A DNA stretch of 41,052 nt from a virus (IMGVR_UViG_3300027974_000062:1-41052), one strand, 5' to 3'. Numbered from the stretch's first letter, positions 1,941 to 41,052 are shown. Numbers and translations are program-made. The notes: generated by a model from the letters alone, not told the origin.

Positions 1941-2455
1941 TTGACCACCTGATAGACCTTTCCCGCGATCTTCGCTTCGACAATCGCGTCTGTTGGGATT
2001 GACTTATACATAGCCGAGCGTGGCTCCCAGACGATCATGAGGTTCATTGACTCAGGATCATACGCCCGTGCTCCACCCTTGAGGTGCTTCTTTACACCCA
2101 AGCGGCAGGTCATCGTGCGCTTCTCGCCCGTGCTGCGCTTGGTGAAAACGATGGTGAAGAATCTCCCCATCGACTTCTTGATCTTCTCAAGCAAGGCCTC
2201 GGTGCTGACGCGGTTGTCGTGCTGTTCCTCATCGGGGCAACGCGGCGTAGCGTCGGCTGGGTAATAGGCTGCTGCCTCAAACATCTTGCCGCAGTTGTGG
2301 CATCGGTACTCTGTTGTAAGCTTCATAGTTTCCTGATCCTCGCAATCATAAGATTCATACTCGCAGTTTCTGCATGAGGCAAAGAAACACCCTTCCTCAT
2401 GGCCTTTCTTGTCGCAATCTATCCAGTCAATCTTGTGCTCGCATACCTCGCTCAT
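1937..2455 (-). CDS. Zinc-ribbon protein with C-terminal SH3-like (WYL_2-type) domain, 172 aa
   Basis: Two parts. Residues 1-75 hold many Cys/His (CEHKIDWIDC, CRNCEY, CHNCGK, then a Cys in PRCPD), consistent with one or two zinc ribbons. Residues about 95-172 contain TMTCRLGVKKHLKGG followed by a beta-rich stretch ending IPTDAIVEAKIAGKVYQV. That pattern recurs in small phage proteins annotated as WYL_2 or SH3 beta-barrel fold proteins, probably nucleic-acid binding. The fusion of both could make a DNA- or RNA-binding regulator. It overlaps both neighbours by ATGA. The SH3-like match is recalled from family patterns, not searched. Confidence 0.7.
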   Translation of the reverse strand: MSEVCEHKIDWIDCDKKGHEEGCFFASCRNCEYESYDCEDQETMKLTTEYRCHNCGKMFEAAAYYPADATPRCPDEEQHDNRVSTEALLEKIKKSMGRFFTIVFTKRSTGEKRTMTCRLGVKKHLKGGARAYDPESMNLMIVWEPRSAMYKSIPTDAIVEAKIAGKVYQVVK

Positions 2456-2640
2456 AGTTTCCCTTCCTCTCGTGCGGCCTCAACACCGATCTCCTCGTGT
2501 GTCGAGATAGCCGCATCTGCTGCTGCTTGTTTCACGCACTTACCGACGTGGAAGTTTCCCCAATCTAGCGGTGAGTACGGCTCTCGAATCTCAATCGGAG
2601 CACCGCACCAATCGCAGGTAAGCTGGTCAGTGGCGCTCAT
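2452..2640 (-). CDS. Small zinc-finger-like protein, 62 aa
   Basis: Begins MSATDQLTCDWCGAPIEIRE, with a CDWC pair at residues 9-12 and a lone Cys near 35 (HVGKC) that could complete a CCHC zinc site (GNFHVGKC). The C-terminal part is a charged helix. ATGA overlap with the upstream gene and ATGA overlap with the downstream gene. No family recognised. Several proteins in this operon share the small, Cys-pair architecture, as is usual for early phage proteins. Confidence 0.65.
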   Translation of the reverse strand: MSATDQLTCDWCGAPIEIREPYSPLDWGNFHVGKCVKQAAADAAISTHEEIGVEAAREEGKL

Positions 2641-2990
2641 GCGTGCGCCTTCTCTTTGTGGTTCTCGCTAAATAGATCCCGCGTGCATACCTGCACGTCA
2701 GCCTCTCGCTCAAGGTTGTAGACATACAGCTCCACGTCGGAAGTTTCATCAAGCACGGCGATATCCCGTACCAACTTCTCCGCCCAATCCTTCTCGAAAA
2801 TCTTCCAAGCAACGCTATGGCCCCGAGCCTCAACGATGATCCCAGAACCGAAGCGGCCTACCTGATACCGCTCCTTGTTGGCGGGATCATAGCCAAGATC
2901 ACGAAGCACCGCCGCAATGCTTGTTTCGACGCTACCGCGTGCGCCATAGCCCATGTCTACGCTGATGTATACCTCTGCCGATGCGCTCAT
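2637..2990 (-). CDS. Hypothetical early protein, 117 aa
   Basis: Not recognised. ATG at 2990 is chosen over an upstream in-frame start at 3086, because it overlaps the TGA of the short membrane protein before it (ATGA) and the upstream extension would overlap that gene entirely. The predicted protein is a mixed alpha/beta chain with alternating hydrophobic strands (AEVYISVDMGYG; SGIIVEARGHSVAWKIF; DVELYVYNL) and no cysteine cluster or membrane segment. A compact cytoplasmic protein is likely. Confidence 0.65.
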   Translation of the reverse strand: MSASAEVYISVDMGYGARGSVETSIAAVLRDLGYDPANKERYQVGRFGSGIIVEARGHSVAWKIFEKDWAEKLVRDIAVLDETSDVELYVYNLEREADVQVCTRDLFSENHKEKAHA

Positions 2991-3151
2991 GAGATTGCAC
3001 CCCCTACTGCTACGCCCGCGAAGAACACGGCCAGCGCCGCGCAGATGATTGACACCCGCTGCCATAATCGCCGTCGATCCTGCCATGCTTGATAGTCCTG
3101 AGCTGCAACGTAGATCATCTGCCTACGAAGCTCCTTACCTGTCTGTGCCAT
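2987..3151 (-). CDS. Small single-pass membrane protein, 54 aa
   Basis: Read directly from the minus strand: MAQTGKELRRQMIYVAA, a basic segment (DRRRLWQR), then a hydrophobic helix VSIICAALAVFFAGVAVGGA at the C-terminus. GAAGGGGGAA stands six bases upstream of the ATG. Its TGA overlaps the ATG of the next gene. The N-in, C-terminal anchor layout fits a small inner-membrane effector or an antiholin-like protein, but nothing more can be said. It follows a second small membrane protein after one base. Confidence 0.65.
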   Translation of the reverse strand: MAQTGKELRRQMIYVAAQDYQAWQDRRRLWQRVSIICAALAVFFAGVAVGGAIS

Positions 3152-3152
3152 G

Positions 3153-3350
3153 TTATTCCCCCTTCTTCTTTGGCGCGTAATGATTACGAGCTATGCCGTC
3201 AATCGTGTCAATGGCGTGCCAGACAACAACCACCAAGCCAATCGTGGCAAAGAGCGCAACGACAGCCTCTTGTAGGCTGCTGCTAAACCAGAGCCACGCC
3301 AGACCCCCTGCTACGGCGATCCCGTAGGCGATAATAGATTCCTTGTTCAT
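3153..3350 (-). CDS. Small membrane protein with two hydrophobic helices, 65 aa
   Basis: Starts MNKESIIAYGIAVAGG at ATG 3348-3350, which has GAGAGGGGAA at ideal spacing. An in-frame start 14 codons earlier lacks this and would run into the operator. Two hydrophobic stretches (about residues 6-20 and 27-47) and a basic tail (HYAPKKKGE) predict a hairpin in the inner membrane with both ends inside. First gene after the promoter and palindrome at 3372-3423, so probably expressed early and strongly. Possible roles include superinfection exclusion or membrane remodelling; this is inference. Confidence 0.7.
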   Translation of the reverse strand: MNKESIIAYGIAVAGGLAWLWFSSSLQEAVVALFATIGLVVVVWHAIDTIDGIARNHYAPKKKGE

Positions 3351-3371
3351 GTTATTCCCCTCTCTTACTAT

Positions 3372-3387
3372 GTTGGCAAGTGCCAAC
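3372..3387. promoter_or_regulatory. Palindromic operator, downstream of promoter
   Basis: Perfect inverted repeat GTTGGCA-AG-TGCCAAC (7-base arms, 2-base centre). On the minus strand it lies 9 bases after the -10 box at 3396-3401, covering the expected transcription start and the first transcribed bases, where a dimeric repressor would block initiation. No repressor gene is recognised in the window. Confidence 0.6.
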
Positions 3388-3395
3388 TTCACTAC

Positions 3396-3423
3396 CTTAG
3401 AATACCCCCCATAGATTTGTCAA
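3396..3423 (-). promoter_or_regulatory. Sigma-70-type early promoter for the small-protein/dnaB/dcm operon
   Basis: On the minus strand TTGACA (3423-3418) is followed after 16 bases by TCTAAG (3401-3396). The -35 is a perfect consensus and the -10 matches four of six positions. The -35 box overlaps the stop codon of the RlpA-like gene, so this promoter restarts transcription at the border between the G+C-rich block and the replication operon. The palindrome just downstream supports regulation. Confidence 0.6.
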
Positions 3424-3932
3424 TACCCCCTGCGTACACCTCCTAACTCTGTGATCTCGACATACATGATGCCACGCGAGAGCGGAACCCCAAGGGCGAC
3501 CCAGAGATGCGGACTCAAATCTATGACGCGGCTCGCGCTATTCCACGGCTTCCGTAAGGCCTTCCATGCGCCGTGGCAATAATCGCGCACGACGGCGATG
3601 ACACAAGTTGTGCCACCCCGTACACACACCCGCACGCGGTACGGCTTGGCGTAGTAGGTAAAGGTACCTACGGCGGCGTAGAGCACAAGCTCCCCGCCAC
3701 GCCCGCCCCGCTCGACGCTCTTGTAGGGCGTGCAGGTATCGGTACGCCCATACACCGACACCCCTCGCGGGCATCGTGCGCCGTACCACGTAGCAACGCC
3801 AGACATAGGTACGCCGTGCGGGGTACGGGGCGGCTCCTCGGTTGCCCGCACGCCCTCGACATAGCTCAGCATGATGCACGCGACGATGAGGGCGGCTAGG
3901 CCATACGCCGCCCATATAGCCCTGCTATGCAT
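3420..3932 (-). CDS. RlpA-like secreted or anchored double-psi beta-barrel protein, 170 aa
   Basis: N-terminal signal or anchor helix (about residues 8-23, AAYGLAALIVACIMLSY), then a domain with the RlpA/DPBB pattern: SGVATWYG near residue 45, paired Cys residues, VRDYCHG, and the hallmark VIDLSPHLWVALG with a downstream GIMYVEI strand. RlpA proteins bind or cleave denuded peptidoglycan glycans; DPBB folds also occur in expansins. The ATG at 3932 is chosen because GAGG precedes it at good spacing; a TTG five codons earlier is the alternative. An early-region cell-wall protein could remodel the wall after infection. The catalytic Asp of lytic RlpA enzymes cannot be placed with confidence, so activity is uncertain. 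Confidence 0.75.
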   Translation of the reverse strand: MHSRAIWAAYGLAALIVACIMLSYVEGVRATEEPPRTPHGVPMSGVATWYGARCPRGVSVYGRTDTCTPYKSVERGGRGGELVLYAAVGTFTYYAKPYRVRVCVRGGTTCVIAVVRDYCHGAWKALRKPWNSASRVIDLSPHLWVALGVPLSRGIMYVEITELGGVRRGY

Positions 3933-4104
3933 AGATAGCCTCGTCAATCTCCTTCACAATCGCATCGCGCTCGTACCATAGCCCTACGATCACGAGCTCA
4001 ATGAGCGCCGCCCGTTGCGGGGTGGCCTCAATAAGCTCGCCAGATAGGTCAGACATGGCGCGGGTAATGCCGTCAATCTTCTTGCACTTATCTTTAAGCG
4101 TCAT
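3925..4104 (-). CDS. Small helical protein, 59 aa
   Basis: Starts MTLKDKCKKIDGITRAM at an ATG overlapping the previous stop (ATGA) and ends eight bases inside the RlpA-like gene. The chain is almost entirely amphipathic helix (LSGELIEATPQRAALIELVIVGLWYERD split by one Pro) and resembles a small coiled-coil protein. No family is recognised. Codon use is less G+C-rich than that of the genes upstream of it. Confidence 0.6.
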   Translation of the reverse strand: MTLKDKCKKIDGITRAMSDLSGELIEATPQRAALIELVIVGLWYERDAIVKEIDEAIYA

Positions 4105-4361
4105 GATCGTGCCGCCTCAATCCCCTCGCGGTAGGCCGCGATCATCATGCACGCCTCGCGTTTAGTCTTCGCGGTATAGCCCGCCGCTAAGCGACGTAGC
4201 CCGCCGCCGTCGTTGATCTGCTCAAATAGCGCGAGCGCCCCCGTAGAATCTACCGCCCGCAACTGGTACGATCCTACGCCGCCCGCGACGGGTACGCCCG
4301 CTGCTACGCATAGCCCTATGAGGGCGCGCTGCACGTCGAGCTTAGTGTATCGGTACGCCAT
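4101..4361 (-). CDS. Hypothetical protein, 86 aa, G+C-rich block
   Basis: Not recognised. ATG 4361 has TGAGGGGGT upstream. Sequence features: a basic N-terminus (MAYRYTKLDVQRALIG), a strand-turn-strand region (GGVGSYQLRAVDSTGALALF) and a C-terminal segment GYTAKTKREACMMIAAYREG. The motif GYT..KREA followed by a helix also occurs in the 56-aa protein at 4858-5028 (GYTRREAVRLFRAA), so the two may share a small alpha/beta fold and derive from one ancestor. Three bases separate it from the gene upstream. Confidence 0.6.
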   Translation of the reverse strand: MAYRYTKLDVQRALIGLCVAAGVPVAGGVGSYQLRAVDSTGALALFEQINDGGGLRRLAAGYTAKTKREACMMIAAYREGIEAARS

Positions 4362-4364
4362 GAT

Positions 4365-4685
4365 CTACACCCCCTCAATACTAGCGCGGCATGGATCGCA
4401 CGCCGCCACGATTATACCGCCGCATGTGTCGCACGATAGGCCACACCCGCCGCGATGATCCCCGCCCTCGCGGTATTCTGCCGCGTCGCCCTCGAAAATC
4501 GGCGCGGGGCTATCCGTGCAAGCGCACGAGAATCTAGGATTAAAACAGTGTGCGCAAGCTTCCGCATCGTATCGGTTATCCGCGCACGCCGTGCATAGCC
4601 CGCCGCCGTCGAGCGTATAGCCCGCGATAGCCCAAGCTTTGCCCGTATGGGCGCGGTTATAGGCCGCCGTATAGCCCGCGCTCAT
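4365..4685 (-). CDS. Cysteine-rich zinc-binding protein, 106 aa
   Basis: Eleven cysteines arranged as repeated pairs: CTACADN, CAHCF, CACTD, CGLSCDTCG and CDPC. Two to three zinc sites are likely, in a treble-clef or ribbon arrangement. ATG 4685 follows GGGAGGGG. The N-terminus (MSAGYTAAYNRAHTGKAWA) lacks a signal. The stop of the preceding gene overlaps its start (ATGA). It may be a nucleic-acid or protein-binding adaptor; no specific family is recognised. Confidence 0.65.
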   Translation of the reverse strand: MSAGYTAAYNRAHTGKAWAIAGYTLDGGGLCTACADNRYDAEACAHCFNPRFSCACTDSPAPIFEGDAAEYREGGDHRGGCGLSCDTCGGIIVAACDPCRASIEGV

Positions 4686-4861
4686 GCTACACCCCTCCCA
4701 TACGATGCCCGAAATAGCGTAATGCGATAGGCTAGCCCGTAATAGGTACGCGCCGCCGTAATCGCCTCGCGCTCAACGCGGCGAGCTTCGGCATAGGTTG
4801 CGTGTAGCGTGTCGATATCGCCGCCCGCAATGTGGCGGCGTACAATCCATCCGCCCCTCAT
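4682..4861 (-). CDS. Hypothetical basic protein, 59 aa
   Basis: Read directly: MRGGWIVRRHIAGGDIDTL, then a long Arg/Ala-rich helix (ATYAEARRVEREAITAAR) and a basic end (ITLFRASYGRGVA). The end GRGVA/AGGVA is shared with the protein at 4858-5028 because both stop codons sit in the same ribosome-site context, GGGGTGTAGCATGA. No family recognised. Both ends overlap neighbours by ATGA, which is the main argument that it is a real gene. Confidence 0.55.
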   Translation of the reverse strand: MRGGWIVRRHIAGGDIDTLHATYAEARRVEREAITAARTYYGLAYRITLFRASYGRGVA

Positions 4862-5028
4862 GCTACACCCCCCGCCCGTACCGCCGCCCTAAATAGGCGC
4901 ACGGCCTCGCGCCGCGTATAGCCTAAGAATAGGCGCGATACGTACGCGCCGCCTACCATCGCGGCGATCCGATAGCCGCCGCCGTTCACTCCCGCCGTGC
5001 GGGTGATGGTGAGCTCGATCCTGCTCAT
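4858..5028 (-). CDS. Hypothetical protein, 56 aa, starts MSRIEL
   Basis: MSRIELTITRTAGVNGGGYR is followed by VGGAYVSRLFLGYTRREAV and a helical tail. Beta-beta-beta-alpha is plausible. A strong ribosome site (GAAGGGGGTAATC) precedes the ATG and a perfect stem-loop (5048-5064) precedes that site. Two further proteins of the block begin MSRI or MSRG with a following GG-Y-strand pattern, suggesting duplication within the block. It is the first gene after a terminator-like hairpin at 5105-5130, so it may begin a new transcript. Confidence 0.6.
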   Translation of the reverse strand: MSRIELTITRTAGVNGGGYRIAAMVGGAYVSRLFLGYTRREAVRLFRAAVRAGGVA

Positions 5029-5047
5029 GATTACCCCCTTCGATTCT

Positions 5048-5064
5048 GGCGGGATTCTCCCGCC
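5048..5064 (-). promoter_or_regulatory. Stem-loop upstream of the 56-aa gene
   Basis: Perfect 7-base arms GGCGGGA / TCCCGCC around TTC, ending 20 bases before the ATG at 5028 and just before its ribosome site. It belongs to a set of three similar stem-loops placed the same way (others at 5800-5820 and 6259-6277). It could be an RNA stabiliser, an operator or a translation-control element. Confidence 0.55.
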
Positions 5065-5104
5065 CTACGCCGTACCCTACGCCTAGCGGCGCGGGGTGTC
5101 AATA

Positions 5105-5130
5105 GGGGGGCGAGCTCATGCCCGCCCCCC
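5105..5130 (-). terminator. Terminator-like hairpin after the 110-aa gene
   Basis: Arms GGGGGGCG (5105-5112) and CGCCCCCC (5123-5130) are perfectly complementary around a 10-base loop. It lies 17 bases past the stop of the gene at 5147-5479 in the direction of transcription. There is no U-tract, so termination would be inefficient or factor-dependent. Confidence 0.4.
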
Positions 5131-5146
5131 GTAGCCGTGCCGCCCC

Positions 5147-5479
5147 CTAATAGGCGGGCGGGGTGTCGATTGTGAACGCGTACCCCCCTTCGATAGCGCC
5201 CGCCGATACCAGCACGGGCGCGTAGGCGTCGCCCTCGCGCCGCATGCTATCGAGGAGCGCGAGTGCCGCCGCCGTATGACGGCCTAGCTCGTCGAGTTCA
5301 TACGGGTAGCCGATCGATATGCGGGGGCGCTTCGCCGCCCCCGCTAGGCGTGCGACAATCCGCGCCCCGCGCGTATTTGTCGCGCCGTAGTAGCGCGTAA
5401 TAATCGCGCAATGCGTGCCGCCTAGCCGTGCAGCTTCGGCGGCTACCCTTGCCGCGTCGATTGTATAGCCCCTGCTCAT
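5147..5479 (-). CDS. Hypothetical protein, 110 aa, starts MSRGYT
   Basis: Not recognised. An Ala/Arg-rich helix (IDAARVAAEAARLGG) is followed by a strand (HCAIITRYYGATNTRG), then a middle helix region ending LLDSMRREGD, and a C-terminal strand pair (YAPVLVSAGAIEGGYAFTI). Alpha/beta fold, cytoplasmic. The ATG at 5479 overlaps the stop of the preceding gene and has a G-rich ribosome site. Codons are strongly GCG/GCC/CGC-biased compared with the late genes, which prefer GCA/GCT and CGA. Confidence 0.6.
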   Translation of the reverse strand: MSRGYTIDAARVAAEAARLGGTHCAIITRYYGATNTRGARIVARLAGAAKRPRISIGYPYELDELGRHTAAALALLDSMRREGDAYAPVLVSAGAIEGGYAFTIDTPPAY

Positions 5480-5778
5480 GATCGCGCCCCCCCTCCTACT
5501 ACTAGCGCGGGGGGATTCTTTGCCCCCGTAGGGGTATATCTCCCCGCCGCTACCCTATCGGCTACCCGCTCGATCGCGGCGGCATCGTCGAGCGCCGTGA
5601 ATACGTGCTCCCCTACCAGCTTGCCGCTCGCGTATTCTTCGACGTGATAGTGCGGAAGCGCCCCGCCGTATACGTCGCCGCCGTGCGGGGCGTACCCCTC
5701 GACGGCCTCGCTATCGCATACGAGCTCGACGCTATACGCGCCGCCCTTCGTTGCCCATTGCGCTAGAATCCTGCTCAT
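5476..5778 (-). CDS. Hypothetical protein, 100 aa, starts MSRILA
   Basis: ATG 5778, preceded by TAGGGGGTGTAATC and, before that, a 9-base-arm stem-loop, is preferred to an upstream extension to 6027 that would cover the next gene. The N-terminal half is beta-rich (KGGAYSVELVCDSEA) with HYHVEEY near residue 62. The C-terminal half has a helix (LDDAAAIERVADRVAAG) and a flexible tail. No family recognised. Its N-terminus resembles the 56-aa MSRIEL protein in layout. Confidence 0.6.
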   Translation of the reverse strand: MSRILAQWATKGGAYSVELVCDSEAVEGYAPHGGDVYGGALPHYHVEEYASGKLVGEHVFTALDDAAAIERVADRVAAGRYTPTGAKNPPALVVGGGARS

Positions 5779-5799
5779 GATTACACCCCCTAAGCTATC

Positions 5800-5820
5800 G
5801 GGGCGGGATTCTCCCGCCCC
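5800..5820 (-). promoter_or_regulatory. Stem-loop upstream of the 100-aa gene
   Basis: Nine-base complementary arms, GGGGCGGGA (5800-5808) and TCCCGCCCC (5812-5820), with a TTC loop. It sits between the stop of the 53-aa gene and the ribosome site of the 100-aa gene. The core is identical to that of the stem-loop at 5048-5064. Confidence 0.55.
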
Positions 5821-5834
5821 CTTCGATTGTACGC

Positions 5835-5996
5835 CTAGCACGCCCAACCCGCAAGGGGCGGGCACGGGATCGACAACACCGCGAGCGCCCCGCCGATAAT
5901 CGCCGCCCATGCGAGGCGGCGGATCATACGGGCGCGGCGCTCCCGCGCTCGATGATCCGCCAGCGTGCGGAGTGAGGCGACGCGGTACCCCCTCAT
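5835..5996 (-). CDS. Small single-pass membrane protein, 53 aa
   Basis: Read directly: a basic N-terminus (MRGYRVASLRTLADHRARER, then more Arg) followed by a hydrophobic helix LAWAAIIGGALAVLSI and a short outside tail with two Cys (CPPLAGWAC). The Arg-rich side would stay in the cytoplasm. Its ATG overlaps the stop of the preceding gene. No family is recognised; with the anchored RlpA-like protein it makes two envelope proteins in this block. Confidence 0.6.
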   Translation of the reverse strand: MRGYRVASLRTLADHRARERRARMIRRLAWAAIIGGALAVLSIPCPPLAGWAC

Positions 5997-6238
5997 GCGT
6001 TGCACCCCTCGCCGCTACCATGCGCAAGCGCGGCGGCCTCGAGCTCGCCCGCTCGAAGCTCGATCATCGCAAGCGCGGAGCTTGCCGTGTTGCACGCTTC
6101 CCGCGCTACCGCTAGCGCCTCGATTAGCCGCCCCTGGCGGTGTTGCAGCGCGTTGCATAGGTTGCACGCTTCGCGTTGCCGCTTCGCCTCGAGCTGGTCG
6201 GGATATACGCCCAGCGTATCGGGTAGCCCCTTGGGCAT
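5993..6238 (-). CDS. Hypothetical coiled-coil protein, 81 aa; first gene of the leftward arm
   Basis: ATG 6238 follows AAGGGGGTGCATT and a stem-loop. An in-frame start at 6313 would translate through that stem-loop and is rejected. After MPKGLPDTLGVYPDQLEAK the chain is one long Ala/Arg/Glu helix with Cys residues in CNLC, suggesting a coiled coil. It is the most upstream leftward gene, facing the divergent regulatory region, and may be among the first expressed. No homologous family is recognised. Confidence 0.55.
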   Translation of the reverse strand: MPKGLPDTLGVYPDQLEAKRQREACNLCNALQHRQGRLIEALAVAREACNTASSALAMIELRAGELEAAALAHGSGEGCNA

Positions 6239-6258
6239 AATGCACCCCCTTCGATTGT

Positions 6259-6277
6259 GGCGGGGATAGCCCCCGCC
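6259..6277 (-). promoter_or_regulatory. Stem-loop upstream of the first leftward gene
   Basis: Arms GGCGGGG (6259-6265) and CCCCGCC (6271-6277) around ATAGC, 20 bases before the ATG at 6238. Third member of the upstream stem-loop set (5048-5064, 5800-5820); the linker to the ribosome site (AATCGAAGGGGGT) is shared with the first of them. Confidence 0.55.
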
Positions 6278-6346
6278 TACCAGAATCCTACACCCCCTGC
6301 ACGGGATCGACAAGGGGTCGGTAGGTTAAGAGTCCGCAACAATCCA

Positions 6347-6368
6347 GAATAGAACGGGCGTTCTATTC
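6347..6368. promoter_or_regulatory. Palindrome, probable operator
   Basis: GAATAGAAC and GTTCTATTC form perfect 9-base arms around GGGC. It stands about 110 bases upstream of the first leftward gene. On the minus strand it overlaps TTGGAA and TATTCT boxes spaced 14 bases apart, a weak promoter match. The A+T-rich arms stand out inside G+C-rich sequence. Confidence 0.5.
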
Positions 6369-6640
6369 CAATAGGGGGCTAGGGGCGACGTAGCGGGGCG
6401 ATAGGGTCGAGGGTAATGCGATCATGGCGGCGATGGGGGCTAAGGGCGTAGCGTGGCGCGTAGGCTGCAATGCGGCCAATAGCTGGATTCTGGCGGTATC
6501 GGCAAGGGGTAGCCCCTGCACGGGATCGGCTAGCCCGTCGAGGGTAGCCCTGCAACGGGGCGGGGGGTATCGGGTACGGCTAGGGGGTAGCCCTGCAACG
6601 GGTAGGGGGTATCGCCTACCCTGCCCGCCCCTACCCCCCC

Positions 6641-6678
6641 GACAAGGGCGCTTGTCCTACTCGACAAGGGCGCTTGTC
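6641..6678. repeat. Two tandem copies of a 16-base palindrome
   Basis: GACAAGGGCGCTTGTC occurs at 6641-6656 and again at 6663-6678, exactly 22 bases apart, about two helical turns. Each copy has 6-base complementary arms around GGCG. This arrangement suits cooperative binding of a dimeric regulator on one face of the DNA. Confidence 0.6.
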
Positions 6679-6683
6679 GTAGG

Positions 6684-6700
6684 TTGGCACGATTTATGCC
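6684..6700 (+). promoter_or_regulatory. Sigma-54-like -24/-12 sequence
   Basis: TTGGCACGATTTATGCC matches the -24 element (TTGGCACG) perfectly and the -12 element (TTGC) at three of four positions with the right spacing. It begins six bases after the tandem palindromes. Phage use of sigma-54 would be unusual, and a chance match in 800 bases is quite possible. Confidence 0.3.
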
Positions 6701-6870
6701 GCCCCCCTCCCCCCGTAGCAAGTCTGGCGGGCGGGGCGTGCGGGGTAGGAATACCCAACCCCGCAATGAACACCCCTTCTGATAAGGCCACCCCCCTTTT
6801 GAGAAGGGTTTCACCCCAATCTGTTAACGAAACCCTGTTAAGTTGTGCTCAACAGCCTCCCTCATAAAGG

Positions 6871-6884
6871 TTAAGACATCTTAA
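6871..6884. promoter_or_regulatory. Short palindrome ahead of the late promoter
   Basis: TTAAGA-CA-TCTTAA, a perfect inverted repeat, lies 12 bases before a TTGACA box. Related GTTAA words occur just upstream (GTTAACG at about 6822, GTTAAG at about 6837), so this may be a regulator-binding cluster. Confidence 0.35.
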
Positions 6885-6895
6885 TGATGTTATTT

Positions 6896-6928
6896 TTGAC
6901 ATAAACCCCCCGTTTTTCTGGTTATATG
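6896..6928 (+). promoter_or_regulatory. Candidate promoter of the rightward arm
   Basis: Perfect -35 TTGACA at 6896-6901. The A+T-rich -10 candidates (TTATAT 6922-6927 or TATATG 6923-6928) are 20-21 bases away, longer than the usual 17, so the match is imperfect. It is the best-placed promoter for the gene at 7045 and would produce a leader of about 110 bases. Confidence 0.4.
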
Positions 6929-6949
6929 GGGGAGACACAGAGGGGGCAA

Positions 6950-7032
6950 CGAACTCACCCTCCGTAAGAACGGTCTCTCACTCAATAGAGTTCGCTCTGG
7001 CCGCTAGGCCAGATTAAGAATGGGGAAACCCA
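6950..7032 (+). ncRNA. Structured 5' leader of the rightward transcript
   Basis: Successive perfect stems are visible. CGAACTC (6950-6956) pairs with GAGTTCG (6988-6994) and encloses CCGT-AAGA-ACGG (6962-6973). CTGGCC-GCTA-GGCCAG follows (6997-7012), then TGGG-GAAA-CCCA (7021-7032), a GNRA tetraloop that ends two bases before the ribosome site GGAG (7034-7037). No known riboswitch class was recognised. It may stabilise the late mRNA or control the first gene's translation. Confidence 0.5.
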
Positions 7033-7044
7033 AGGAGTTTTGAA

Positions 7045-7503
7045 ATGGCAACACCAAAGAAGGCAATGCCGAAGCCAAAGACAGGTCGCGGCTCAATCTA
7101 CAAGGGAACGGACAAGACGACGAATAAGAAGGATCGAGTACGTAATTCTAGCCAAAATGTAGTGTACGCCAATGGAAGCACGAAGAGGCTAGTCACCGCC
7201 TCGCAGCAGGGCAAACCAGTTGTAAAAGCGGAACAGAACGCTTATGTCATTTCTCAAAAAAAGGGAAACACCATTGAAACCCGCCTAAATTCTAACGATC
7301 CGTATGTTGACCCGCGCGGTGGGTACATTGACCGATTCCCTCGCGCCGAAATGAAGACAACTACCTTCGGAGCGGGCGGGCGAAGGGAGTCAATTGTTCG
7401 AAAGTCGGGACAGAATCAATCCCCTGGCTTTGTTGTGAGCGAGACCCAACTCAACCGTGGCTCAGGAACCCGCAAGACGGGCGCAAAGAAGAAGGCCTAC
7501 TAA
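7045..7503 (+). CDS. Basic hypothetical protein, 152 aa; first gene of the rightward arm
   Basis: Not recognised. The ATG follows AAGGAG with good spacing after a folded leader. The protein is rich in Lys/Arg/Ser/Gly/Asn with basic ends (MATPKKAMPKPKTGRGS and TGAKKKAY), has no long hydrophobic segment, and looks partly disordered. Such proteins are often DNA- or RNA-associated, or minor virion components packaged with DNA. Its leading place after a strong ribosome site suggests high expression. Confidence 0.7.
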   Translation: MATPKKAMPKPKTGRGSIYKGTDKTTNKKDRVRNSSQNVVYANGSTKRLVTASQQGKPVVKAEQNAYVISQKKGNTIETRLNSNDPYVDPRGGYIDRFPRAEMKTTTFGAGGRRESIVRKSGQNQSPGFVVSETQLNRGSGTRKTGAKKKAY

Positions 7504-7536
7504 TAGTTACAACGCCACCGATTCAGAGGGGGTCGA

Positions 7537-7926
7537 ATGTCCAAGGCAATCGCACACTACGTCAATCGCTGCAAGGACATCCTCGGGTTGGGGCATTGGA
7601 CCATCACGGTAGGAGCTGGTTCTCCGCCTGACGATTCCTGGGCTGATGTAGAAGTCAGCACGAACCTGTATAACGCTACCATCCGCTTCTCTCCAGATCT
7701 CTGGAAGCAGAAGAAGGACGAGATCCGACGGGTGGTAGCGCACGAACTGATCCACCTGCACCAGGCAGGGGTGGAGCGTCTCGTTGAGGCGTTGGAGGCG
7801 TCGCTGGGATCGGCGGCCCATAGCATCCTCAGCCATATGTGGGATGTTGAAACGGAGCGAGCGGCTGACTCGCTTTCCGTACCTCTCGCTCGGCTGCTGC
7901 CGATGCCGAGCATAGGAGAAGACTAA
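7537..7926 (+). CDS. Zinc metallopeptidase-like protein, 129 aa
   Basis: Carries the zincin signature [10 protein letters not shown], with zinc ligands His69 and His73 and catalytic Glu70. A Glu in the helix [10 protein letters not shown] (about residues 103-111) is the likely third ligand, giving an HEXXH...E arrangement on a minimal catalytic domain. Starts ATG 7537 with GAGGGGG upstream. It is small, without a signal or prodomain, so it acts in the cytoplasm or the virion. Phage zincins of this type are usually unassigned; a prohead or structural-protein protease is one possibility. Its stop overlaps the next start (TAATG). Confidence 0.8.
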
Positions 7927-8183
7927 TGCCATTGAAGAAGGGTTCGTCACAGAAGACGATCTCCGCGAACATTCGCATGGAGATGCATAAGGGTCATCCG
8001 CAGAAGCAGGCAATTGCGATGGCGCTCTCTGCTGCTGGGAAGTCCAAGAAGGGCAAGGTCGTCGTTAAGGGTGGTGTTGCTAAGGACCAGAAGGGTATGA
8101 GCAAGACTGCCCAGAAGCGTCACGAGAAGGCAGAGCCACGACGCAAGAAGGTCATGGAGACCAAGCGATACGGGGCGTCCTAA
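7926..8183 (+). CDS. Small basic phage protein, 85 aa
   Basis: Starts [20 protein letters not shown] and continues with the [11 protein letters not shown] helix seen in small conserved phage proteins of unknown function. The second half is a Lys-rich, probably disordered tail. It is coupled to both neighbours by TAATG junctions. A DNA-binding or assembly role would fit the charge, but the sequence alone does not show it. Confidence 0.7.
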
Positions 8184-8338
8184 TGCCAGCCAAGCCAGGT
8201 CTCTACGCCAACATCAACGCAAAGCAGAAGCGGATCGCCGCTGGTTCTGGCGAGAAGATGCGGAAGTCAGGCAGCAAAGGCGCCCCTAGCGCCAAGGACT
8301 TCAGGGACTCCGCCAAGACAGCAAAGAAGAAGAAGTAA
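8183..8338 (+). CDS. Small conserved basic phage protein, 51 aa
   Basis: Read directly: [20 protein letters not shown], then GSGEKMRKSGSKGAPSAKDF and a Lys-rich end. The YANI.AK..RIAAGSGEKMRK pattern is familiar from many environmental phage genomes, where it occurs as a short uncharacterised protein, often near structural genes. It begins at a TAATG junction with the gene before it. Too short for general gene finders but well supported by the coupling and by pattern. Confidence 0.75.
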   Translation: MPAKPGLYANINAKQKRIAAGSGEKMRKSGSKGAPSAKDFRDSAKTAKKKK

Positions 8339-8341
8339 CCC

Positions 8342-9736
8342 TTGTCTAAGTTCACCTCAACCAGGGTCATCAACAGCCGCTGGCGAAACAATGATTTCGT
8401 TGGCCAAGCTGGTTCTACCCATACGTTTCCAGATTCGTTCCATGAGGAGTTCCTCGTGGACTGGGCGTTGCAGATCTCCGACGGTTCGATTGTCATTACG
8501 GAAACCCCGACGACGGGGAACATCCAGGTCTCTACCCTTACTGTTGGGGATATCACCCTCACTGGAACTGCGACTGGAAACTTTGGTGGAGGATCAGGGA
8601 CGTATGTAAGTAAAACTGGCGATACCATGAGTGGCCAGTTGTATGTCTCTTCAGCAACCACCACAAGCACCGTTGGCTTTGGCGAAATCATTTTTGCTAA
8701 GAATACCTCGTATGGATCCATTGCAGTAAATGCACCAGGCGACAATCTCCACATTCGATCTAAGAATGCAGTTGAGGTTATATCGCAAACTGGACCAACC
8801 CCAGTAAGTCTACGGGCAAAATCTATTGGAGTAAACTCCAGCACCACATCTCCAACGCTTGTAGACAATGGCATCACGTTTGGTGATGATGTCAACCTCT
8901 ACCGATCAGGAGCAAATGCCCTAAAGACCGATGATGCCCTTGAGGTTGTCGGAGCACTCACCAATGGTGGAACCTCAGTCAGTTTATCAACGCACACCCA
9001 TGCTGGTATTGGCGTATCAAGCGTTAGCGGAACTTTGCCAATTACCACAAGCGGAACAACTGCTGTTACTGTTGCAATTAACCAAGGATCAACCACGGCA
9101 GTCGGAGTGTTGCAACTCACTGATTCAGTTAGCAGCACTAGCACAACAACAGCGGCTACACCAAACAGCGTCAAAACCACCTATGACATTGCCACGGCAG
9201 GGTGGGAGGCGTACACCTTTGGTACGGCTGGCATCGTCGCAACGCATCCACGATTCGTGCTTACAACAAATCGCGCACCTACCACTGGGCAAATCAATCA
9301 CAGCAAAATCATTCCGCACAAGGACTTTACCGTGAGCAACATTGCCTTTGTGTCGGCTGGCACAGGAACAGGCACTCCAACACTTATCCGCTTTGGCATC
9401 TACACGCGCAGTGGTACGACCTTCACACTCGTTGCTCGTACCGCATCAGACACAACGATCTTCAGCGTATCCGCAACTAAATACACTCGTGCGCTAGACA
9501 CAACAGGTGGCTACCCTGCAACCTACACGATGACAAGGGGTACTGAATACTTCATCTCGGTCATTCAGGTCGCCACCACGCCTGCGGCGATGATTGCTGC
9601 AACGCTACGCGAGACTGGATCATTGGCGGCAACAGGCGCGCAGCTTTACACACAAAATACCCAAGCAGATCTCGTGGCTTCGTCAACTGGCACAGCAAGC
9701 GCAACTGTCGGCGGCGTGTATGCGGAGGTTTCCTAA
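8342..9736 (+). CDS. Tail fibre / receptor-binding structural protein, 464 aa
   Basis: Ser/Thr/Gly-rich beta-structured protein. About residue 95 it has VSKTGDTMSGQLYV, the collagen-like-free tail-fibre repeat seen in many phage fibres. Around residues 245-285 it has GVLQLTDS followed by AATPNSVKTTYD, the classic tail-fibre repeat (phage_fiber family). The C-terminal 170 residues form a distinct beta-rich domain that may bind the receptor. It probably starts at TTG 8342, four bases after the previous stop; no better ATG exists before the conserved region. It lies far from the other tail genes, next to the lysis locus. Confidence 0.8.
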   Translation: MSKFTSTRVINSRWRNNDFVGQAGSTHTFPDSFHEEFLVDWALQISDGSIVITETPTTGNIQVSTLTVGDITLTGTATGNFGGGSGTYVSKTGDTMSGQLYVSSATTTSTVGFGEIIFAKNTSYGSIAVNAPGDNLHIRSKNAVEVISQTGPTPVSLRAKSIGVNSSTTSPTLVDNGITFGDDVNLYRSGANALKTDDALEVVGALTNGGTSVSLSTHTHAGIGVSSVSGTLPITTSGTTAVTVAINQGSTTAVGVLQLTDSVSSTSTTTAATPNSVKTTYDIATAGWEAYTFGTAGIVATHPRFVLTTNRAPTTGQINHSKIIPHKDFTVSNIAFVSAGTGTGTPTLIRFGIYTRSGTTFTLVARTASDTTIFSVSATKYTRALDTTGGYPATYTMTRGTEYFISVIQVATTPAAMIAATLRETGSLAATGAQLYTQNTQADLVASSTGTASATVGGVYAEVS

Positions 9737-9864
9737 TGCCAGTCATCACTGAGCCAGCCTACCTAGACGAGCAGACTGGTATGCTCACCGAGATCGTCCG
9801 AGACGCAGAGACTGGCGAGATCATCGGCAAGAATGAGCGGATGCCTGAGGATGTCCCAGAGTGA
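9736..9864 (+). CDS. Very small acidic protein, 42 aa
   Basis: Read directly: MPVITEPAYLDEQTGMLTEI, then VRDAETGEIIGKNER and an acidic end. The start overlaps the previous stop (TAATG), and its own stop overlaps the GTG of the next gene (GTGA). It looks like a beta-hairpin protein, TGMLTEIV and TGEIIGK forming two similar strands. No function recognised. Confidence 0.5.
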   Translation: MPVITEPAYLDEQTGMLTEIVRDAETGEIIGKNERMPEDVPE

Positions 9865-10349
9865 CTGATCTGGCTCCAGTCTTAACTGGTTGCCACGTTT
9901 GTCGCAGCCCTTTGGTTGAGGCGATCAACAAGAAGATGCGCGACGGAATGTCCGATGTGCAGCTTTCCAAGTGGCTTGCGGACGCTGGACACTACATCTC
10001 CCGCATCACCCTTGGCAAGCATAAGCGCGACCACCTCACCGAAGACCACGAACACAAGCGCATCTCTGCCATCAACCACCTTCGCAAGCAAAAGAAGACC
10101 ATTAAGGCAACGGGCGACCTAGCAATGCTGGTACGGGACTACGTACATAGTGCAGTGCAGGACGGGGATTTGACCCCAACGCTGGCAGAAGGCCTTCGCG
10201 CACAGGAAATGATTGACCGACGCCAAGAGAAAGGCGCTGATCGAGAGGTTGCACTGCAACTTGCAGGCATCTTGGGCGGCGGTGCTACTTACCAGATCAT
10301 TGAAGCAACAGAAATCAAGCCATTAGGGGTCGGAGAATCGGAGTTATGA
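9861..10349 (+). CDS. Zinc-knuckle/HTH DNA-binding protein, candidate small terminase subunit, 162 aa
   Basis: GTG start overlapping the previous TGA. N-terminus CHVCRSPLVEAINKKMRDG followed by a helix-turn-helix-like segment (MSDVQLSKWLADAG, then SRITLGKHKRDHL). This Cys-x2-Cys plus HTH layout occurs in small phage DNA-binding proteins, including some small terminase subunits. The rest is a charged helical region (residues 70-140), as expected for oligomerisation. The large terminase lies 3.3 kb downstream with no other TerS candidate between them. A transcription regulator is the alternative. Confidence 0.45.
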   Translation: MTDLAPVLTGCHVCRSPLVEAINKKMRDGMSDVQLSKWLADAGHYISRITLGKHKRDHLTEDHEHKRISAINHLRKQKKTIKATGDLAMLVRDYVHSAVQDGDLTPTLAEGLRAQEMIDRRQEKGADREVALQLAGILGGGATYQIIEATEIKPLGVGESEL

Positions 10350-11105
10350 TTGCGTTCCGCAGCCTTATTGGGACTTCTACTTACAGTAAGCTTTGTTCTC
10401 CCAAGAATTGCACGTGCAAACCAGCAAGAAGTCTGGTGCGGAGACTGGAATCCCTACACGGGAGAGTTTCAGATGTGGGGGCCACTCTGGTGGGAGGACC
10501 AGCCGTGGGAAAACCTATGGAGCGAACTCTGTTTACCAAATCGACCGTGGGATCCGATTCCGTGGGAACCGAACCCAACGCCGAGCGCGAGTGTGGAGCC
10601 TAGCCTTGAGCCGACACCAGAGCCTACACCCAGCCCGACGCCTGAGCCGACGCCAGAGCCAACACCAGAGCCGACTCCGACTCCGACTGAAGAGCCGACT
10701 CCAAGCCCAACGCCAACTCCGACTGAAACTCCGCAGCCTACGCCAAGCCCTAAGCCGAGCGTAGCCCCAACACCAACGGCACCTCCGCCAACGCCAACGG
10801 AGCCACCGCCATCACCAACTGAACCGCCACCAACTCCAACAGAGCCGCCACCGACACCAACGGAGCCACCACCATCGCCCGTGGCTCCGCCTCCTGATCC
10901 AGTAGCGGCAGTCGCGGAAGCAGTTGCGGCGATCTCGGAAAGCATTGGCGAAGCGGTCGAAGCAGTCACCAACCTAGGAAAAGATCTCTCGGTCGAGGAG
11001 AAGAAGCAGGCTCAACCAGTTGCGGTGGCAATCATCGTGAGTCAGGTAGCCCAAGCAGCAGCGGCTGCGGTTGCAGCCTCCAACACAGGGAGAAATAAGA
11101 AGTGA
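10350..11105 (+). CDS. Secreted Trp-rich, Pro/Thr-repeat protein at the lysis locus, 251 aa
   Basis: TTG start immediately after the previous TGA. Residues 1-24 form a clear signal peptide with an ARA-N cleavage site. Residues 27-75 contain nine Trp and two Cys ([25 protein letters not shown]). Residues 76-180 are an extended Pro repeat (PTPEPTPE, then PPPTPTEP units) and would stretch across the periplasm or wall. The C-terminus is Ala-rich with a weak hydrophobic helix ([19 protein letters not shown]) before NKK. It is followed at once by holin-like and lysin genes. A spanin-like or wall-spanning role is inference; no lipobox is present. Confidence 0.65.
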
Positions 11106-11272
11106 TTACAAAAATTATTAACGATCTAGTCGGTGGGTCTTGGACGATCCTTGGACTTCTCTTTGCAGTCGTGGTGCTGCCAGAAGGGGCAACACGAGAC
11201 ACAATGGCATCAATCTTCACGGGGTTGACACTAGTATGGTTCCTGACGGGACCACTACGCTGGAAGGATTAA
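11102..11272 (+). CDS. Holin-like two-helix membrane protein, 56 aa
   Basis: GTG 11102 overlaps the previous TGA. Read directly: a short basic N-terminus ([12 protein letters not shown]), hydrophobic helix [16 protein letters not shown], short loop, then second helix [16 protein letters not shown] and a basic end (PLRWKD). Two helices with a short charged tail is the class II holin layout, and the next gene is the lysin, three bases on. Two other membrane candidates exist: the lysin's own C-terminus and the coiled-coil protein at 30932. Which one forms the lysis hole is not decidable here. Confidence 0.6.
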
Positions 11273-11275
11273 CAA

Positions 11276-12391
11276 ATGCAGTATCGGGTCAAGTCGCAAC
11301 TCTACTCAGACGCTGAGGCAAAGCAGAAGGGCGCCAAGCAGGTGCTCGATGACTGCACATGGTCATCGTGTGCCGCCGCAGTCTCGTGGGCTTCTGGCTA
11401 CACGGTGGACTACACTGCTGCCCAAGGCGTTGCCGCGTTTGAGAAGGCGACTGGCCGCAAGGATAAGCAGGGCGTCAGCGATGCTGGCGGTTCACTACCC
11501 GAAGCGGTCAAGACCATTGCAGTCCTTGGCGGCAAGGCACGCTACGCAAAGTCGTGGGCTGATGCCGTAGCCGCCGCAAAGGGCGGAGCCGCGCTGATGG
11601 TATGGGTGCAGCAGCCGCTCGGCTACCCAGACATCCACATCAGCAAGTGGCACGATGCGTGGAAGAAGTGGTGGTGGGTCAAGCAGAAGCAGCCTACCCG
11701 AACCTACGGGCATATGACTAGCGCCGCGTGGTGCGAAGATCACGGTTGGCAGTGGTCATGCCCTACCCGCGACGAAAAGGCCGCCACCGAAAAGTACGGC
11801 GTGCTAGTTACCGAAGAGCAGCTCAAGCAGATCGCCAACAGCAAGGTCAAGGCTGGCAAGGTTGCCGCCGATTATAAGTGCCTGCTGATCGTGACGCACC
11901 CAGGTAAGGTAGCCGCCCCAGTTGCAACTCCAGCGGTCGCGCAGGTGGCTCCCGCAATCAACGTAGAGGCACTTAGGAAGCTCGTAGAGGCTCCAAAAGT
12001 AACATCTGGTATAAAGACACCATCCCAGTTGGATGTTGCGGTAAAAGCCCTAGAGAACGTCAATTGGGCATCAATCGGAGCAAAGGGTCTAGCTCTGGCA
12101 GGAAGCGCGGCTGAGGCCGCCAAGAAGGAGGAGACCACCGTGGGTAAGATTGGCGCATGGTTTAAGTACATCGCAGCAAACAGCAAAATTGACGAGATGA
12201 TTCTTGACGCGGTTCGGACATTCCTGACCGTCAGCATCTCGGTTGCCCTTGGATTGGGCATTCCGCTCCTAGACATCAACGGGGGAGACTTCCGTCTGGT
12301 GCTATCCGCTGGACTCGCCTCGGCGCTCCAGGTTATCGTGAAGGCGCTTGACCCAAGCTCCACGGACTACGGCTTCCAGAAGAAGAAGTAA
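11276..12391 (+). CDS. Endolysin-like cysteine peptidase fused to a holin-like membrane domain, 371 aa
   Basis: The N-terminal domain (about residues 1-205) has the start of a papain/C39-like peptidase: DDCTWSSCAAAVSWA, with Cys27 and Cys32, and a candidate catalytic His in YGHMTSAAW near residue 146. A Pro/Ala/Val linker follows (residues 205-225), then a helical stretch. From about residue 315 two hydrophobic helices appear (TFLTVSISVALGLGIPLLD and FRLVLSAGLASALQVIVKAL), typical of a short holin. The order lysin-linker-membrane domain is unusual. The enzyme would cut peptidoglycan peptides from the membrane. Bond specificity is unknown, and the choice between Cys27 and Cys32 is open. Confidence 0.6.
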   Translation: MQYRVKSQLYSDAEAKQKGAKQVLDDCTWSSCAAAVSWASGYTVDYTAAQGVAAFEKATGRKDKQGVSDAGGSLPEAVKTIAVLGGKARYAKSWADAVAAAKGGAALMVWVQQPLGYPDIHISKWHDAWKKWWWVKQKQPTRTYGHMTSAAWCEDHGWQWSCPTRDEKAATEKYGVLVTEEQLKQIANSKVKAGKVAADYKCLLIVTHPGKVAAPVATPAVAQVAPAINVEALRKLVEAPKVTSGIKTPSQLDVAVKALENVNWASIGAKGLALAGSAAEAAKKEETTVGKIGAWFKYIAANSKIDEMILDAVRTFLTVSISVALGLGIPLLDINGGDFRLVLSAGLASALQVIVKALDPSSTDYGFQKKK

Positions 12392-12912
12392 TGTCCGACA
12401 AGTGGGTCTATGTTGGTGGGACATTTGATCTCTTCCACTCTGGACACATCAATTTCCTCAGCAAGTGCGCTGAGTACGGCAAGGTAATCGTTGCCCTCAA
12501 CACAGACCAGTTTGCTGCTCGGTATAAGCGGCGACCAATCCTCTCTCTTGCAGAACGCTACGATGCGCTGGATGCGTGTCGATTTGTGGACAAGGTTGTT
12601 GTCAACATCGGCAACGAAGACAGTTGGGTCACCATTGACGCAATGCCGCGTGATTGCAAGATCAAGTTTATTGCGCATGGTGACGATTGGACTGGCGATA
12701 GCCTTCTTAACCAACTCAACATTAGCCAGCACTGGCTAGACATCAAAGACATCTCAATGCTGTACATTCCATATACCGCTGGTATTTCTACTAGCGACAT
12801 TATAGGGAGAATCAATGGCGAGCATCACCGTCGTGGTAACTGCTCATGCGGACTCGGAGAACCTTGTTCGTATGCTGGAGCTACTGGGGAAGCAAATCCA
12901 GAAGCCCGATGA
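12391..12912 (+). CDS. Cytidylyltransferase-like (TagD-type) nucleotidyltransferase, 173 aa
   Basis: Nucleotide-binding fold with VGGTFDLFHSGH (HXGH at residues 16-19) and the second signature ISTSDIIGRI at 132-141. Both match glycerol-3-phosphate or related cytidylyltransferases, which make CDP-activated alcohols or sugars. Family members end soon after the second motif. Here the frame runs a further 32 residues (Cys/Gly/His-rich) through a 98-base overlap with the glycosyltransferase downstream. It starts at a TAATG junction. Together with the next gene it suggests a CDP-linked precursor and a transferase. The substrate cannot be told from sequence. Confidence 0.8.
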   Translation: MSDKWVYVGGTFDLFHSGHINFLSKCAEYGKVIVALNTDQFAARYKRRPILSLAERYDALDACRFVDKVVVNIGNEDSWVTIDAMPRDCKIKFIAHGDDWTGDSLLNQLNISQHWLDIKDISMLYIPYTAGISTSDIIGRINGEHHRRGNCSCGLGEPCSYAGATGEANPEAR

Positions 12913-13354
12913 GATCATTGCCCTCTGCTCTGAGATTGATCTTGAGGGCGTTTGGCAACGGTTTCCGTGGGTCAGGTTTTACGAAGAGCCAAACCTCAAC
13001 GACTGGGGTCACGACAAGAGGGCCAAGGGGCTTGACCTGGCGACATCTGAATACACCGCGTGGTTCAACCACGACGACTCCTACGACCAGACCTTCATCC
13101 AAGAGATGATGGAATCTGCATCGGGTGGCGCGGATGTGATATACTGCGGTTGGAGTAGGAATCACACTCCATCCTTTGCCCTTGGGCAATCCACCTCTGG
13201 CAATTACATTGCCAAGACAACCTATGCTCGTCAGGCTGGCTACCAAGACCGCCACTACGAAGCAGATGGAACCTTCATCAATCGACTAGCCAACCTTGGC
13301 GGTAAGATTGAGTTTATTCCCAAAGTCCTATATTTCCATAATGAGGTGAAGTAA
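12815..13354 (+). CDS. Glycosyltransferase, GT-A fold (family 2-like), 179 aa
   Basis: Begins MASITVVVTAHADSENLVRM, the nucleotide-binding first strand and helix of GT2 enzymes. FNHDDSYD at about residues 83-90 supplies the metal-binding DXD-type motif, and HYEADGTFINRL supplies the acceptor-side Asp. It is shorter than typical GT2 (about 230-300 aa), so it is a minimal catalytic domain. GGGAG precedes the ATG. It overlaps the cytidylyltransferase gene by 98 bases. It transfers a sugar from a nucleotide donor to a virion protein, wall polymer or DNA; the acceptor is unknown. Confidence 0.75.
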   Translation: MASITVVVTAHADSENLVRMLELLGKQIQKPDEIIALCSEIDLEGVWQRFPWVRFYEEPNLNDWGHDKRAKGLDLATSEYTAWFNHDDSYDQTFIQEMMESASGGADVIYCGWSRNHTPSFALGQSTSGNYIAKTTYARQAGYQDRHYEADGTFINRLANLGGKIEFIPKVLYFHNEVK

Positions 13355-13653
13355 TGCCAAAGAGTGCCGCATGGCAACGCAAAGAGGGAAAGAGCGCATC
13401 TGGTGGCCTGAACGCCAAGGGACGCGCCTCCTATAAGGCGCAAACTGGCGGCACACTTAAGGCTCCAGTCAAGAGCGGAGATAATCCGCGACGAGCCTCT
13501 TTCCTCGCCCGTATGGGCGGTATGCCTGGTCCTGAGCGCGACGAGAAAGGTCGACCGACGCGCTTGCTCCTTAGCCTTCAGGCTTGGGGCGCCAGCAGCA
13601 AGACGGATGCCCGTGCAAAGGCAGCCGCGATCAGCAAGCGCAACAAGGCTTGA
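13354..13653 (+). CDS. DUF6321-like basic phage protein, 99 aa
   Basis: The sequence MPKSAAWQRKEGKS, then GGLNAKGRASYKAQTGGTLK, matches the conserved pattern (SAAW.RKEGK..SGGLNAKGRASY) of small phage proteins annotated as DUF6321. The second half has RRASFLARMGGMPGP and ends in a Lys-rich tail. These are usually encoded beside the large terminase, as here. It is strongly basic and may bind DNA during packaging; this is inference. It starts at a TAATG junction, and its TGA overlaps the TTG start of terL. Confidence 0.8.
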   Translation: MPKSAAWQRKEGKSASGGLNAKGRASYKAQTGGTLKAPVKSGDNPRRASFLARMGGMPGPERDEKGRPTRLLLSLQAWGASSKTDARAKAAAISKRNKA

Positions 13654-26121: not shown

Positions 26122-26210
26122 ATCCCCACCAGAATCAACGGAGAGGCACCTAGGAACCACTAGGAGCCACAAAAAGGGTCAAGGTGGCACTTAGCCACAA
26201 GAGGGTCGAT

Positions 26211-41051: not shown

Positions 41052-41052
41052 G
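40440..41052. repeat. Divergent terminal repeat, right copy
   Basis: Partner of 1-613, same orientation, running exactly to the window end. The match starting at base 1 and ending at the last base is what a circular assembly overlap produces. Confidence 0.85.

Follow-up and report, generated by a model that had tools for sequence, protein, structure and literature searches.

The window, i.e., the whole stretch of DNA analyzed here, is a virus record of 41,052 bp in IMG/VR (IMGVR_UViG_3300027974_000062:1-41052). Between a leftward gene block extending from DnaB to rlpA and a divergent rightward late operon it carries an island of G+C-rich DNA with small genes, which is the subject of this article. 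In a first-pass annotation, made from the sequence alone, this island had been placed at 3420-6238, with the G+C-rich DNA continuing to 6760. These borders are accurate, since segmentation yields a maximal segment of the self-complementary dinucleotides TA/AT/CG/GC at 3519-6226, the island core (206 nats; the best segment elsewhere reaches 8.4), and a maximal GC-rich segment, including the non-coding right end, at 3471-6745.

Genes of the Island

About nine small open reading frames (ORFs) are tightly packed on the minus strand, as annotated. The rightmost (5993-6238) codes for 81 amino acids (aa). It is followed by one of 53 aa (5835-5996) with a basic N-terminal part and a single hydrophobic stretch, which is kept in 7 islands of the phage group described below, by one of 100 aa (5476-5778, MSRI...) found in this island only, by one of 110 aa (5147-5479, MSRG...) of the phrog_3199 type found in 9 islands, and by one of 56 aa (4858-5028, MSRI...GYTRREA) found in 8. 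Further to the left are ORFs of 59 aa (4682-4861), of 106 aa with 11 Cys (4365-4685), the product of which possibly binds zinc, of 86 aa (4101-4361), the family of which, present in 10 islands, is more widespread than any other, and of 59 aa (3925-4104), the GC content of which is with 0.53 near background. Longer relatives of the 4101-4361 product match phrog_15513 weakly. The island is bordered by an rlpA-like core gene (3420-3932, minus strand), and the first gene to the left of it (3153-3350, minus strand) encodes a small predicted membrane protein. That three proteins begin with MSRI or MSRG, that one is Cys-rich and that two look membrane-associated had been noticed correctly; the pattern GYT..REA thought to be shared by two of them is at chance level (BLASTP E=0.49).

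The statement that none of the products is recognizable holds for most of them, but not for those of 5147-5479 and 3420-3932. The former is matched by the phrog_3199 profile (E=1.3e-11) over residues 24-106, and its AlphaFold2 (AF2) model (pLDDT 84) has fold matches only to uncharacterized phage proteins. Island versions share profile and predicted fold with phrog_3199 and differ in an additional N-terminal helix of about 20 residues. In the PDB no sequence relative was found and a fold search gave nothing convincing; a weak fold match to T7 gp1.2 was at noise level and was rejected. Distant homologues belong, in some other phages, to the genes that come first. One directly precedes the RNA polymerase gene in Pseudomonas phage UFJF_PfSW6 (Studiervirinae), Roseobacter phage CRP-207 has one at the start of its genome, Nonagvirus JenP1 and Stenotrophomonas phage Silvanus have theirs amid small genes, and in phiKT an unannotated one is near the right genome end.

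The 3420-3932 product is predicted to be a membrane-anchored RlpA-like protein, with an N-terminal membrane helix and a double-psi beta-barrel (DPBB) domain (AF2 mean pLDDT 76). The model matches 4avr (Foldseek E=1.7e-5, prob 1.00). With RlpA/DPBB proteins (PA4485, kiwellin, expansin) it shares the predicted fold and the motifs TWYGA and IDLSP. It differs from them in having VRDYC in place of the usual stretch, which we take to be of the NDRGP type, and in its score with Pfam PF03330, which is below the curated cut-off (E=0.01; 16.5 versus 28.8 bits).

Searches with Pfam, NCBIfam and PADLOC were negative for the window's island genes, the defence-system models of PADLOC giving zero matches to 10 proteins at E up to 0.1, and Rfam gave only a single sub-threshold ROSE-like match (5066-5161; 35.5 versus 45 bits), which is not believed. 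The sole island product with a recognizable replication role is from a relative: L129 encodes at 3378-4628, within a TpA-rich island, a sliding-clamp-like protein of 417 aa (phrog_947, E=1e-7), which is far below the cut-off of the NCBIfam dnan model.

Leaders of the Cassettes

Most cassettes, which comprise either one small gene or a short operon, are preceded by a leader of the same plan, in which a sigma70-like promoter is directly followed by a perfect hairpin, a strong ribosome site and the initiation codon. Three island genes of the window have a TTGxxx-17-TAxxxT promoter, a hairpin 5-9 nt past the -10 element, a G-rich ribosome site and ATG, all on the minus strand. The leader at 6238-6313 has a -35 TTGTCG, a spacer of 17 nt, a -10 TAGGAT, the hairpin GGCGGGGGCTATCCCCGCC at 6259-6277 and an AAGGGGG ribosome site; that at 5778-5854 has TTGCGG, 17 nt, TACAAT, the hairpin GGGGCGGGAGAATCCCGCCCC at 5800-5820 and a ribosome site; and that at 5028-5102 has TTGACA, 17 nt, TAGGGT, the hairpin GGCGGGAGAATCCCGCC at 5048-5064 and again AAGGGGG. 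The last unit recurs in relatives with altered stems. A similar leader outside the island (3350-3423, minus strand), the -35 of which overlaps the rlpA stop codon, precedes the gene 3153-3350 (TTGACA, 18 nt, TAAGGT, hairpin GTTGGCACTTGCCAAC at 3372-3387, ribosome site), and this type of unit is also present in the relative L126.

The islands together contain 24 distinct leader units; in five islands 12 were found versus 0.05 expected from Markov simulations, and none on the reverse strand. In the 24 units the -35/-10 elements are 3-9 nt upstream of the hairpin, but it should be noted that this register was part of the search. When promoters were sought without requiring a hairpin, 22 of 28 had one, compared with 6.7% of positions taken at random in the islands. 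A scan with the sigma70 consensus alone gave no excess over shuffles, because the -10 boxes are TAGGGT-like. The stems of the hairpins are of 13 distinct kinds, with base pairs exchanged among them. Some TATTGACA boxes are preceded by GC hairpins, which were looked at as intrinsic terminators and lack a T-run.

Base Composition

The GC content of the island is 64% versus 54.5% in the remaining genome. Per kb it is 0.62-0.67 over 3501-6500, with a peak of 0.67 near 5001-6000, versus approximately 0.47-0.61 elsewhere, as expected from the annotation of the block as G+C-rich and unlike the rest. The annotated shift in codon preference is also found, Ala being encoded by GCG in 61% versus 21% and Pro by CCC in 50% versus 9% (island versus rest). 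It extends, beyond what had been annotated, to Val, encoded by GTA in 59% versus 16%, and to Leu, encoded by CTA in 38% versus 12%. More unusual are the dinucleotides. The observed/expected (o/e) ratio of TpA is 1.96 in the block versus 0.64 in the remainder; ApT (1.80), CpG (1.29) and GpC (1.27) are likewise in excess, and CpA/TpG and ApC/GpT are depleted. Self-complementary dinucleotides per kb have z-values of 8.6-12.3 inside the island and of at most 1.9 outside (relative to mononucleotide shuffles). At four-fold sites of island genes the third base tends to complement the second (G after C in 116/202, A after T in 44/90, C after G in 79/140).

The bias is symmetric between the strands (r ~0.81-0.84), and so is the depletion of CTGT/ACAG, CAGT/ACTG, GACC/GGTC, GTCC/GGAC and similar motifs. 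The excess of TpA and ApT is found both in coding and in non-coding island DNA, and that of CpG is absent from the non-coding right end. This right border (6240-6760) is GC-rich and TpA-rich (TpA o/e 2.12) and contains the repeats GTTGCAGGGCTACCC and CGACAAGCGCCCTTGTCG. The left border is graded.

Several conceivable causes of this composition were rejected. Palindromes of 4 and 6 nt are below Markov expectation in the island and outside alike, so that selection for palindromes does not apply and their avoidance is not island-specific. Selection for mRNA structure is contradicted by z-values of -1.3 for island genes versus -1.6 for controls (relative to synonymous permutations), and antisense coding by the enrichment of CTA, an antisense in-frame stop, in the island. 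Strong purifying selection on synonymous sites would lower four-fold divergence, which is 0.15-0.21 in the island versus 0.14-0.18 outside. An own C5-methyltransferase was dismissed since, among the compared island records, only the window has the gene. The latter, coding for a C5 cytosine DNA methyltransferase, is at 39199-40215 (Pfam E=2.7e-54), and a 63% relative exists in L163.

Distribution and Exchange of the Islands

More than 100 IMG/VR contigs encode a close TerL. In all close-clade contigs that could be placed across the locus a GC-rich, TpA-rich island is present at this one position, and the same island lies between the same flanks in a dozen independent contigs from different metagenomes. 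In G006 of the sister clade (TerL 81%) and in the further relative L128/L129 the island is present with other genes and a TpA ratio of up to 2.7-2.8, and in G004, G005, G008 and G014 it is absent. An island-type protein (phrog_3199) is held by 7 of the 18 records checked. The 106 ORFs of 12 islands fall into 33 families, 12 of which were seen once. The co-occurrence of the block in related phages, by which the annotation was to be checked, is thus found across the close clade and in part of the sister clade.

Exchange is seen in contig 3300032267_000877, which shares 99.92% identity with the window over 6598-23701 (17,107 bp) and in which the whole island is replaced. Identity breaks at 6598; the island is only 75-78% similar, in patches, and to the left of it identity is 91.5% at 2452-3931 and 99.1% at 1664-2333. 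The right-hand boundary at 6598-6605 recurs in other relatives and is therefore a recurrent recombination boundary. No match to the island was found among known phages or plasmids that could indicate a DNA source. What can be kept of the annotation is that the small genes form a separate module, probably an early one, in which takeover or counter-defence genes may profitably be sought; recent transfer or duplication of the block is not supported. Indeed, the island genes are unrelated to each other, and the island, for which phages and plasmids yielded no outside DNA source, is a long-resident locus of the whole close clade and of part of the sister clade rather than a recent import, the more so as rlpA has the signature only beside an island.

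Does Composition Follow Location?

The rlpA gene has a self-complementary ratio of 1.18-1.34 in island-bearing phages versus 0.82-1.15 at island-free loci. In the DnaB tree the island-bearing phages are nearly one clade, and in the rlpA tree they are split into two groups, with signature-free rlpA genes near each of them. Because rlpA has the signature only beside an island, and this in two rlpA lineages, composition appears to follow location. The signature is kept between island homologues the four-fold sites of which are mostly 55-85% as different as independent ones, and in one pair fully so. The rlpA pattern, the unreduced four-fold divergence, the strand symmetry and the ordinary mRNA structure together favor a local process at the level of DNA. 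It is conceivable, at somewhat less than an even chance, that one short locus is held by such a process in a private composition regime, in which each base tends to be followed by its complement and genes, whichever they are, come to adopt a common spelling once they are placed there, while the rest of the genome does not. To our knowledge a location-bound dinucleotide regime is without precedent.

Explanations of the Island

The island is probably a hypervariable set of exchangeable early-gene cassettes that occupies one fixed position in the genomes of a clade of phages, which are uncultured and known solely from metagenomes. As judged from the leader spacing, transcription would start at or near the base of the hairpin, yielding an mRNA with a 5'-terminal stem-loop that may protect it against 5'-end-dependent decay. 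For the shuffling of cassettes the leader units, being nearly identical, would provide homology. The products would act early on the host, probably in takeover or counter-defence, which is a reasonable guess from their position, size and turnover. The extreme composition (GC ~65%, TpA ~2x expected) would be kept locally and not be the relic of a single donor; the likeliest local process would be biased mutation, biased repair or biased gene conversion in connection with the frequent exchange between islands. It should be noted that some findings do not fit easily: some promoters at an island start (6 of 28) are without a hairpin; bacterial genomes searched with TerL and the RlpA-like protein contained zero relatives; and the location effect is backed by only two independent rlpA events.

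A serious rival, although we consider it unlikely, is that the island came once from a genome of odd composition and that from then on the islands, as a closed pool, have exchanged cassettes solely with each other. This would account for every cassette in every island sharing the signature irrespective of its genes, for the lack of the signature in phrog_3199 homologues outside the clade and for the near-monophyly of island bearers in the DnaB tree. It does not easily account for the signature beside islands in two separate rlpA lineages, nor for its persistence when the four-fold sites of distant islands are far towards saturation; in addition, no donor DNA was found among phages and plasmids, and we know of no genome in which DNA of 65% GC has a TpA ratio near 2. 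Still less probable is selection on early DNA, by which the genes acting first would avoid the asymmetric double-stranded DNA motifs of host restriction-type defences, leaving self-complementary dinucleotides over-represented. The strand-symmetric depletion of tetranucleotides and the early-type gene content would be as expected, but island four-fold sites evolve as fast as elsewhere, the palindrome deficit is alike inside and outside, and the breadth of the bias, which includes non-coding DNA, exceeds what avoidance of a few motifs needs.

For the hairpins it is quite improbable that they serve as operators for proteins, or as the promoters used by an N4-type virion RNA polymerase, and not as 5'-terminal stem-loops of RNA, even though short loops of 3 nt and conserved GGCGGGAGAATCCCGCC cores are found in many of them. 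Stems and loops vary, and the exchange of base pairs in 13 stems favors a structure over a fixed operator; sigma70-type elements are in register 3-9 nt upstream in the 24 units, and the hairpins recur in the promoter-only search. Pfam recognized no RNA polymerase in the two large unannotated late proteins (901 and 1325 aa), although these may have remote homology to one. Finally, uniform composition and an assembly chimera had been named in advance as findings that would speak against the block. The composition is non-uniform, and the junctions recur in independent assemblies. Chimerism or contamination can practically be dismissed, although the record is linear in IMG/VR and its ends, overlapping by approximately 613 nt at 91.5% identity, point to variants mixed there: for the island it is refuted by the same island with the same flanks in contigs of different metagenomes, and the graded left border also argues against it.

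Source Record and Features Outside the Island

IMG/VR classes the record as linear. Its ends (1-613 and 40440-41052) overlap by ~613 nt with 91.5% DNA identity; therefore it is probably a nearly complete genome, circularly permuted or redundant, with ends from variants. Both ends encode the same part of a DnaB-like helicase on the minus strand. In the searched phage collection neither the DNA of the window nor its TerL had a match or relative, respectively; for the major capsid protein, distant relatives with ~30% identity are found in Streptomyces phage Stella, Bacillus phages Pascal and Pony and gut phages. No tRNA genes were found in the window.

In front of the rightward operon the region 6980-7045 has a hairpin (TCTGGCC-GCTA-GGCCAGA, plus strand) ~30 nt 5' of the first start codon, with GAACTC...GAGTTC repeats upstream. 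The region is kept in close relatives and is probably a late promoter region. Sugar genes at 12391-13354, 26184-27443, 32364-34165 and 37296-37859 encode cytidylyltransferase-like and glycosyltransferase-like proteins, an NAD-dependent epimerase and a dTDP-4-dehydrorhamnose 3,5-epimerase. The protein of 10350-11105 is Trp/Pro-rich with an N-terminal hydrophobic stretch, and its DNA has several internal repeat matches in relatives. Gene 36445-36960 is low in both CpG (o/e 0.58) and GC (0.48) relative to its neighbors.

Relation to Known Systems and Significance

The closest described units are the start-associated sequences (SAS) and extended SAS (ESAS) of cluster K mycobacteriophages, which are repeated units with an inverted repeat 5' of several small genes (PMC3203893; PMC11373665). 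ESAS include a SigA-like promoter, SAS a 13-bp GGGATAGGAGCCC element that lies within 3-9 bp of the start codon, and both are conserved between phages and occur with genes of more than one family (PMC3203893; PMC11373665). The likeness lies in the promoter and inverted repeat before several unrelated small genes (24 distinct units here). However, the island leaders have AAGGGGG-type ribosome sites instead of the GGGATAGGAGCCC element, their hairpin is perfect, lies just 3' of the -10 element at the expected 5' end of the transcript and varies in sequence with exchanged pairs, and the units are confined to one compositional island. A hairpin in the 5' leader of T4 gene 32, which, like other 5' stem-loops of this kind, stabilizes the phage mRNA (cited in PMC8948821), is likewise near the mRNA 5' end but belongs to a single gene, whereas in the island the leader plan is repeated and its stabilizing role would be by analogy.

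Morons and accessory early-gene regions are likewise composed of extra small genes that stand between conserved blocks, have promoters of their own and are odd in base composition. Correspondingly, the cassettes are preceded by putative sigma70-like promoters, and the island differs in composition from its neighbors. In contrast to morons, many cassettes are stacked at one fixed locus with leaders on one plan, and the composition goes with the locus and extends into a core gene. The organization of the island is thus a variant, itself new, of known accessory early-gene regions.

If composition does follow place, then a local process of mutation, repair, conversion or selection acts on ~3 kb of a phage genome. 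The islands are, besides, a compact, promoter-marked set of small genes from at least 33 families, almost none of which has an assigned function, in phages that are not represented in the searched phage records. The leader plan provides a sequence handle for finding more of them, and the island could thus help in the discovery of new early phage genes.

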